From Aphanocapsa feldmannii 277cV (GTDB lineage Bacteria; Cyanobacteriota; Cyanobacteriia; PCC-6307; Cyanobiaceae): 43,597 bases of DNA. The stretch lies in assembly GCA_004768415.1 (NCBI GenBank), contig SRMO01000054.1, positions 3,344 through 46,940 on the forward strand, in the 5' to 3' direction. Shown here in pieces: positions 5,993-42,677 of this stretch (the first letter of the stretch is position 1; the number at the start of each line of letters is the position of its first letter). The position numbers and the translations under genes were made by a program. A model generated the notes under the pieces. It saw only the letters and a program-made list of their open reading frames with translations. It ran no database searches and was not told the DNA's origin.

Positions 5993-6892
5993 TCAGGTGG
6001 CTTCCACCAACCCGGACTGAACACCGGCACGGCGCAGCTTGTGCAGAGCACGCTGCACCACTTGACGGCAGTACTCGCGGTTGCAGCTCATCTGCCGTGC
6101 CACCTCGGCCAGGGTACGCCACTCATTGGTGCCATCGAGTCCAAAGCGGAGCATCACCACCGTGCGCTCCCTGAGAGTGAGGCTGGCCCGATCCAGCAGA
6201 GCCCAGACCGATGCGCTGCGCTCCTGCTGCTCCACTTGCTCAACCGGTGAGATCGCTTCCGAGGGCAGCACGTCCACAAGTTCGGAAAGGTCGGATTTCG
6301 ACTTCACCAGGCCATGCAGGCTGATCGTAATACTGCGCCACTCACAGCTGAGCAGTTCCTCCACCTCCTCCACGGGACAGTCCAGTACCTCTGCCAGTTC
6401 AGCTGATGCTGGGTGGCGACCATTGCACTGCAGTAGACGCGCCTTGGCCGCTCGTAACTTGGTCAGCTTCTCATTCACATTGACAGGAATGCGAATCGTG
6501 CGGCTCTGGGTGGACAGGGCACGGTTCAGGCCCTGGCGAATCCACCAATAGGCATAAGTGCTGAAACGATGGCCCCGTGTGGGATCGTATCTCTCCACAG
6601 CCCTCGCCAAGCCGAGGGTGCCTTCCTGAATGAGATCGGAAAGATCAAGACCTTTGCCTCGGTAGCGCTTGGCCAGATTGACCACCAGCCGCAGATTGGC
6701 AGTGATCATCTTGTTTTTGGCATGCTCACCCTGGCGCAGCACCTTGTGCTGCTCAGGTGAGTAGCCGGCGTTGCACTGTCCCTGCAGCCTCACGGCAGCC
6801 TGCACCTTCCGACCAAGCAGGAGCTCCTCTGCTGGAGTGAGCAACTTATGGCGTCCAATCTCGCTGAGATAGGTGCTGAGGGAACTGACCAC
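5993..6892 (-). CDS. Group 2-type RNA polymerase sigma-70 family factor
   Basis: LRLVVNLAKRYRGKGLDLSDLIQEGTLGLARAVERYDPTRGHRFSTYAYWWIRQGLNRAL plus regions 3/4. Confidence 0.95.
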   Translation of the reverse strand: MVSSLSTYLSEIGRHKLLTPAEELLLGRKVQAAVRLQGQCNAGYSPEQHKVLRQGEHAKNKMITANLRLVVNLAKRYRGKGLDLSDLIQEGTLGLARAVERYDPTRGHRFSTYAYWWIRQGLNRALSTQSRTIRIPVNVNEKLTKLRAAKARLLQCNGRHPASAELAEVLDCPVEEVEELLSCEWRSITISLHGLVKSKSDLSELVDVLPSEAISPVEQVEQQERSASVWALLDRASLTLRERTVVMLRFGLDGTNEWRTLAEVARQMSCNREYCRQVVQRALHKLRRAGVQSGLVEAT

Positions 6893-6969: not shown

Positions 6970-6996
6970 CCAAACTCGAGGGCACCCTGAAAAATC
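6970..6996 (+). repeat. Short repeat, copy A
   Basis: ccaaactcgagggcaccctgaaaaatc; about 21/27 identical to 7113..7139. Confidence 0.5.
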
Positions 6997-7112: not shown

Positions 7113-7215
7113 CCGAATTCGAGGGCATCTCGAAAAATTGCTTCTTTTTTCTTGCCGAAACCCCCTGCTGGCCTCGCGATCCCTTGCAGCTACTGGTGCC
7201 TTCATGGCAACAGGC
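7113..7215 (+). repeat. Dispersed repeat, copy B (about 100 bp)
   Basis: ttcgagggcatctcgaaaaattgcttctttt...cgcgatcccttgcagctactggtgccttcatggcaacag; homologous to the reverse complement of about 42571..42677. Confidence 0.65.
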
Positions 7216-7451
7216 GATCCCACAGGGGTAGGAGAACAGGGAACCGCAGTGAGCAGCTGCTCGCGGTGGGAGACCCAGCACCAGGCCAGACCCGATCGCA
7301 CAGGCGGCACTGCAGGGTGCCCTGGGCAGTGACGTAGACAGGACGCAGGGCCTTGGGACTCGCCGGACTTGCCGCACTCCGATCCACCCCCGCTAGCATC
7401 AACCCTCACCTGGCCCCCGGTTCCGGCCGGCTCCGTGGATGGTGTCCGTGG

Positions 7452-7661
7452 ATGGTGAACGATCTGCTCGCGTTGCCCCTGGCGGAGCGGTTGGAACTGG
7501 TACGGACCCTGTGGGATTCGATGGCTGCCGATCAGATCGGCCCACCGTTGAGCGAGGCCGAACGTCAGCTGATCGATCAGCGCCTTGATGCGCTGCTGGC
7601 CGATGGCGATCATGGCCGCGATGCCTTTGCGCTGCTGGATGACCTGGAGCAGCCGCTCTGA
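7452..7661 (+). CDS. Addiction-module (antitoxin) protein
   Basis: 69 aa from ATG 7452: MVNDLLALPLAERLELVRTLWDSMAADQIGPPLSEAERQLIDQRLDALLADGD..., typical of the putative addiction module component family (PF09720-like). Confidence 0.85.
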   Translation: MVNDLLALPLAERLELVRTLWDSMAADQIGPPLSEAERQLIDQRLDALLADGDHGRDAFALLDDLEQPL

Positions 7662-7663
7662 GC

Positions 7664-8923
7664 ATGTCCCTGCAGATCAGGGAGGAGGCCCGCCTCGACA
7701 TCGAAGCAGCGGCGCGCTCCTTCAACCCCACCGAACCCTTGGATTCTCCTTCTCGAAGGCAGCAGAACTGGCCCTGGTGGCCGCTGCTTCCCCTCTATCC
7801 CTATGGCAATCGGTGCACCATCCGCCGTGCACTGATCCCCGGCCATGTCTGGAGTTTTGAACAGCTCCAGGGCATCTTCCACGTGGTGGTTCCGATCCGC
7901 ATGGTGGTGGTCAGTGTCCCCGGGGGACTGCTGGCCTATGCCCCCGTGGCGCCCACCCGGACCTGTCTCGCCCTGATGCGGGAGCTTGAGGCCATCCATG
8001 GTCCGCTGCTGGCGATTGTGCTGCCCAGCAGTTCCGGCCTGGAACACAAGCTCCCTGTGCCTGCCTTCGCGCGGGCATTTCCCGGGGCTGCAGTCTGGGT
8101 CACCCCGAAGCAGTGGAGCTTTCCCCTCAACCTGCCCCTGCGTACCCTCGGCTTCCCCGCCGGCCGCACCCGCGTGCTGTTCGAGCAGGGTCTGCCCTTC
8201 CCGACAGTGCTCGACTGGCAGCGCCTGGGCCCAATCGATATCGAGCTGGGCTGGTTCTGCGAAGCCAGCTGCTTCCATCGGCCCAGTGGCAGTCTGCTGG
8301 TGACCGATGGCCTCATCGCCCTGGACGATGTGCTGCCCGAGCTGCTGAACGCCGATCCCACGGCGGTCCTGTTCCATGCCCGCGAAAGCGGCCGCGAACC
8401 ACTGAGGGATACCCCTGAGCGTCGTCGCAGGGGCTGGCAGCGCCTGCTGCTGCTGTCGCTCTACCTGCGTCCGGACTGTCTCGAGCTGCCCCCACTCTCC
8501 AGCTGCCTGGGCGATGCTCTGGCGCCGGGACTGCGCAACCGACGCAGCTACTTCGGCCTTTACCCCTTTCGCTGGCGCGACGACTGGCAGGACTGCGTCC
8601 ATCGCGTTGTCCGTGGCGGTACCCCCCAGGTGGCACCGATCCTGGAGCGGCTGGTGTTTCCGCGGCGGCGGGCGGCGATGGCGCACTGGCTGGCAGCCCT
8701 GGCGGACCTGCCCGCCACCCAGCTGGTGCCCTGCCACTTCCGGGCGCCAGTTCCGCTGGCCAAGGACAGCCTGCGCCAGGTGCTGGAGAACTGGTGCCGC
8801 GGCCCCCGCCAGGACGACGCGTCCATCAGCGGCTTCCTGCAGCGCCTCGACAGAACCCTCGTGGCTGCAGGCCTGGTCAGCGGGGAAGAGGACGTGTTGC
8901 TGGGGGGCAGGGTGGTGGATTAA
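7664..8923 (+). CDS. DUF4336 domain-containing protein with N-terminal ParE/RelE-like toxin stub
   Basis: RRQQNWPWWPLLPLYPYG...IPGHVWSFEQLQGIFHVVVPIRMVVV...LPSSSGLEHKLPVPAFARAFP is typical of DUF4336. The preceding MSLQIREEARLDIEAAARSF resembles a ParE/RelE start and sits 2 nt after the antitoxin stop. Confidence 0.88.
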   Translation: MSLQIREEARLDIEAAARSFNPTEPLDSPSRRQQNWPWWPLLPLYPYGNRCTIRRALIPGHVWSFEQLQGIFHVVVPIRMVVVSVPGGLLAYAPVAPTRTCLALMRELEAIHGPLLAIVLPSSSGLEHKLPVPAFARAFPGAAVWVTPKQWSFPLNLPLRTLGFPAGRTRVLFEQGLPFPTVLDWQRLGPIDIELGWFCEASCFHRPSGSLLVTDGLIALDDVLPELLNADPTAVLFHARESGREPLRDTPERRRRGWQRLLLLSLYLRPDCLELPPLSSCLGDALAPGLRNRRSYFGLYPFRWRDDWQDCVHRVVRGGTPQVAPILERLVFPRRRAAMAHWLAALADLPATQLVPCHFRAPVPLAKDSLRQVLENWCRGPRQDDASISGFLQRLDRTLVAAGLVSGEEDVLLGGRVVD

Positions 8924-42570: not shown

Positions 42571-42677
42571 TGGAATGGGTCTGTTGCCATGAAGATCCCA
42601 GTGGCTGCAAGGGATCGCGGATGTCAGCAGGACTGTCCCGACGAGTAAAGAAGCGATTTTTCGAGGTACCCTATAAA
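42571..42677 (-). repeat. Dispersed repeat, copy C
   Basis: Reverse complement tatagggtacctcgaaaaatcgcttcttt...ccgcgatcccttgcagccactgggatcttcatggcaacag aligns with 7113..7215. Confidence 0.65.

Follow-up and report, generated by a model that had tools for sequence, protein, structure and literature searches.

The locus analysed here raises the question of what became of the toxin partner of an apparently intact antitoxin gene, and how a conserved DUF4336 gene came to be joined to that antitoxin. The window (the whole stretch analysed, 43.6 kb) lies in a 113-kb contig, C51, of a 2.55-Mb draft assembly in 100 contigs, and was compared with relatives from one psbA-bearing, Prochlorococcus/Synechococcus-like family, which we read as Cyanobiaceae. 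On the forward strand, a complete gene for a 69-aa antitoxin (7452..7661) is followed 2 nt after its stop by ATG 7664, which begins a 419-aa frame that stays open throughout and ends at 8923.

The sequence-only reading took the antitoxin to be intact, and this is borne out by matches to both family profiles above their cut-offs: 42.8 bits against PF09720 (curated cut-off 23.3, E 5e-11) and 46 bits against TIGR02574 (cut-off 31.9, E 3.9e-12). Antitoxins of the family are 65-72% identical to that of the window, a match is present in 20 of 200 other family genomes, and comparison with relatives gives a dN far below dS. In relatives with a preserved locus the orthologous antitoxin ends in CTCTGA, followed by 2 nt and then by the ATG of a protein that begins M?LRLRPEARLDLEAAARWYEAQ..GLG and belongs to the PF05016 ParE toxins (E 1.9e-11). 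The window shares both the CTCTGA stop context and the 2-nt spacer with the preserved loci (CTCTGA-NN-ATG), and the 18 codons that follow (7664..7717, forward strand), encoding MSLQIREEARLDIEAAAR, agree with the relatives' toxin start at 11-13 of 18 residues. Scored against a toxin profile built from relatives with the window excluded, this stub reaches 28.2 bits, while the best of 2000 shuffles reaches 12.5; in an ungapped scan of 87,074 six-frame window positions it is the best hit, at 62 against 26 for the runner-up. Its nucleotide identity to relatives is 59-69%, near the 70-75% of the antitoxin. The frame at ATG 7664 does begin as a ParE partner would, and this remaining N-terminus shares common descent with the PF05016 ParE toxin.

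The extent of the toxin portion was slightly overstated by the sequence-only reading. Past codon 18 the similarity drops to background (1-3 of 20 residues), so that an N-terminal stub is indeed present but ends at about 7717/7718, and the residues from 'SF' onward are not toxin. Alignment to the PF05016 domain covers just 18 residues, 25 at most, a Pfam search of the 419-aa frame reported no toxin domain, and about 82 toxin codons are missing from the locus, with DUF4336 in their place. A search of the genome found no toxin body elsewhere either. The antitoxin is an orphan, as had been proposed, and the locus would not constitute a functional type II toxin-antitoxin (TA) system. Since loss of the C-terminus abolishes the toxicity of RelE/ParE-type toxins (PMC7935541), and both the toxin body and the C-terminal region are gone here, it is very unlikely that the stub retains any toxicity.

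Toxins of the TIGR02574/PF09720 TA family commonly decay while the antitoxin next to them stays intact. Of the relatives, 14 have an antitoxin of full length, and only L033, L037, L039 and L048 among them pair it with an undamaged, roughly 100-residue toxin. The other 10 of the 14 loci have toxins that are frameshifted, carry deletions or stops, lack a start, are truncated or have disappeared altogether; in this count a contig end also interrupts L041, L040 has lost just its final 9 residues, and not every genome is independent of the others. Such decay recurs across L033-L055, with in-frame deletions of 13-15 residues in L035, L036, L046 and L049. A contig scan gave just one distant Prochlorococcus locus.

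From about 7760 on, the frame encodes a DUF4336 protein of the usual kind, in line with the original description of the frame as running on into this domain: PF14234 spans residues 59-373 (367.9 bits against a cut-off of 28.5, E 6e-110). The gene is present in 175 of 201 genomes. Conservation begins at about residue 33 (Q33), with WPWWPLLPLYPYG from residue 36, placing the conserved body at 7760..8923 on the forward strand, while the leaders ahead of it vary among relatives. We looked for DUF4336 orthologues sharing the first 20 residues of the fusion, which had been named as evidence against a toxin origin, and found that the orthologues do not share these residues. When the first 70 residues were searched against 398 genomes, only the genome of the window, among the matches listed, aligned from residue 1. 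Matches in G259 and G215 begin at residue 2, with an unrelated leader, an ATG 17 residues before the conserved WPWW, and no antitoxin. No toxin-like leader on DUF4336 was found in L004-L032 or among the other matches listed from the 398 genomes. A PDB sequence search with DUF4336 gave no significant match. An AlphaFold2 prediction for the fusion, made from an alignment of two sequences, had a mean pLDDT of 36 and was set aside. In the literature, the term DUF4336 was met in passing mentions only.

The two parts meet in a short stretch (7718..7759, forward strand) delimited by the loss of toxin similarity and by GC3, which is 0.57 here and 0.89 and 0.82 in the flanking stretches; it comprises the end of the toxin similarity and a variable DUF4336 leader with a possible start at TTG 7739. 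This junction is a break inside the toxin gene that also lies at a synteny boundary. Downstream, 18 of 19 relatives preserve the order DUF760-lepB-menD. Upstream of DUF4336, psbA occurs in 14 of 19 relatives and a ZIP-like transporter in 6 of 19, singly or together; the window was found to have neither, and none of the relatives examined has the antitoxin or the sigma factor of the window beside DUF4336. The contig of the window does carry psbA, at a distance of about 93-100 kb farther on; the transporter was not found in the genome, although an empty search is weak evidence. A break within the toxin gene at a synteny boundary implies a rearrangement, or a deletion of some size. The sequence-only reading was thus right that the toxin was lost and that its start was fused in frame, but because the junction coincides with the synteny breakpoint, the fusion frame was left by a rearrangement and not by simple deletion of the toxin in place.

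Several features of the surroundings deserve mention in their own right. Two psbA copies in opposite orientation lie about 5 kb apart (C51:104082-105158 and 109702-110775 of the window's genome, G000), both distant from DUF4336, unlike in most relatives examined. A dispersed repeat of about 100 nt (78-85% identity) was seen in four copies, two in the window (7122-7227 and 42581-42672) and two on other contigs of this genome (C38:3202-3305 and C49:1556-1666), and is possibly an insertion-sequence remnant. The copy at 7122-7227 is upstream of the antitoxin promoter, about 500 nt from the junction and not at it; its position 5' of the antitoxin suggests a rearrangement-prone region. An imperfect 26-nt direct repeat (81%), CCAAACTCGAGGGCACCCTGAAAAAT, occurs at 6970-6995 and 7113-7138, 143 nt apart; these copies, in the interval that separates the sigma factor from the antitoxin, look like element ends. 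The sigma-70 factor itself (5993-6892, reverse strand) best matches TIGR02997, the cyanobacterial RpoD/SigA family, at 289 bits, below the cut-off of 384.5, and does not adjoin the antitoxin in relatives.

Taken together, we consider it probable that a rearrangement fused the toxin stub to DUF4336, giving a two-gene unit of antitoxin and 'toxin stub::DUF4336' that uses the TA promoter and a coupled start. The break would have one end at codon 18/19 of the ParE-family toxin gene; its other end would fall immediately 5' of the conserved DUF4336 gene or in that gene's first codons. The antitoxin would thereby have been stripped of its toxin, and DUF4336 of the native promoter and the greater part, if not all, of the 5' leader. 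From the break it is about 21 nt to TTG 7739 and about 42 nt to the conserved core. DUF4336 retains no more than 20-40 nt of its original upstream sequence, so the native promoter can hardly survive, and the antitoxin promoter most likely drives transcription of the gene. Translation would then be coupled to the antitoxin stop (TGA-GC-ATG), ATG 7664 standing close behind that stop like the toxin starts of relatives, and would yield a 419-aa protein whose 18 toxin-derived N-terminal residues are presumably inert. The event, a single one seen in one genome known from one draft assembly, was probably neutral; both this and its age are inferred. The dN/dS of the stub is unable to separate pre-fusion from post-fusion change.

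The DNA ahead of the antitoxin may keep promoter and operator elements of the TA operon. A -10-like box, GCTAGCAT (7392..7399, forward strand), resembles the relatives' GCTANNNT, found 44-48 nt 5' of the antitoxin in nearly all of them, and a CCGG-N-CCGG palindromic element (7417..7430, forward strand), a putative operator or leader hairpin, resembles their CCGGCCCTGCCGG, which, or a similar sequence, lies 21 and 12 nt ahead of the antitoxin start. In relatives the spacing of box and palindrome to the antitoxin is nearly fixed; in the window they are 13 nt farther out, the length of an exact tandem duplication, TCCGTGGATGGTG (7432..7457, forward strand), at the antitoxin start. With a unit length of 13, which is not divisible by 3, the antitoxin start codon must come from the second copy of this duplication. 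The box-plus-palindrome pattern has one match in the 43.6-kb window and none in 100 shuffles, although it was composed after viewing both sides, and with a profile made from the relatives' antitoxin 5' flanks the window does not rise above background, whether the tandem copy is included or left out. As the pattern was written post hoc and the unbiased profile gave no score, the resemblance is suggestive only.

Translation may begin at ATG 7664 or at TTG 7739, and the latter possibility underlies the first alternative, in which DUF4336 is translated from its own TTG, no fusion protein is made, the capture is transcriptional only and the in-frame join is a coincidence of about one in three. TTG 7739 lies ten residues ahead of WPWW, within the range of the nearest candidate starts in relatives (about 4-21 residues, often GTG or TTG), and GC3 is low across 7718-7759. 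We nevertheless regard this as unlikely, for no Shine-Dalgarno-like sequence precedes 7739, and ribosomes that initiate at the conserved ATG 7664 would pass over it without a break, the frame being open throughout. Still less probable is an assembly artefact that joined two unrelated contig ends: the fragmented assembly, the loss of synteny at the breakpoint and the dispersed repeat upstream would all fit, yet the junction (7711-7733) is unique in the window and outside the repeat, the contig is long, and in-frame joining of unlike ends without a repeat would be an unusual assembler error. An extension of the fusion reading, in which the orphan antitoxin has kept its binding to the operator, perhaps binds the toxin-derived N-terminus as well, and has the DUF4336 fusion as a replacement for the toxin in TA-style autoregulation, strikes us as highly improbable. 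Finally, although DUF4336 leaders differ between relatives, the idea that MSLQIREEARLDIEAAAR is a native variable leader resembling ParE by chance is refuted for practical purposes, ruled out by the profile score and scan rank given above and by its location exactly at the toxin position, behind the cognate antitoxin and the same spacer.

The fusion reading offers a concrete route by which a conserved chromosomal gene may inherit the promoter, antitoxin and start codon of a decaying TA locus. Should the fusion be expressed, the reuse of TA regulatory parts could be tested on it. The reading also accounts for the misleading N-terminus that automated annotation would give this DUF4336 protein. 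No precedent for toxin-remnant fusions or for promoter capture by TA loci appeared in the titles and abstracts of the literature. Compared with the chromosomal type II pair of Cyanobiaceae (a TIGR02574/PF09720 antitoxin with a PF05016 ParE-type toxin, e.g., L033, L037 and L039), the window has the same antitoxin length and sequence, stop context, 2-nt spacer and first 18 toxin codons, but DUF4336 instead of the toxin body of about 82 codons. Compared with the PF14234 proteins of Cyanobiaceae, the whole conserved body and the downstream neighbours are alike, whereas the leader and upstream neighbourhood have been replaced and the N-terminal 18 residues are toxin-derived. Orphan (solitary) antitoxins left by TA decay are well known (PMC7192599, PMC3874152), and the window likewise appears to hold an intact antitoxin with no functional toxin; unlike in those cases, a conserved chromosomal gene here now begins with the leftover toxin start, and it is this in-frame join that is new.
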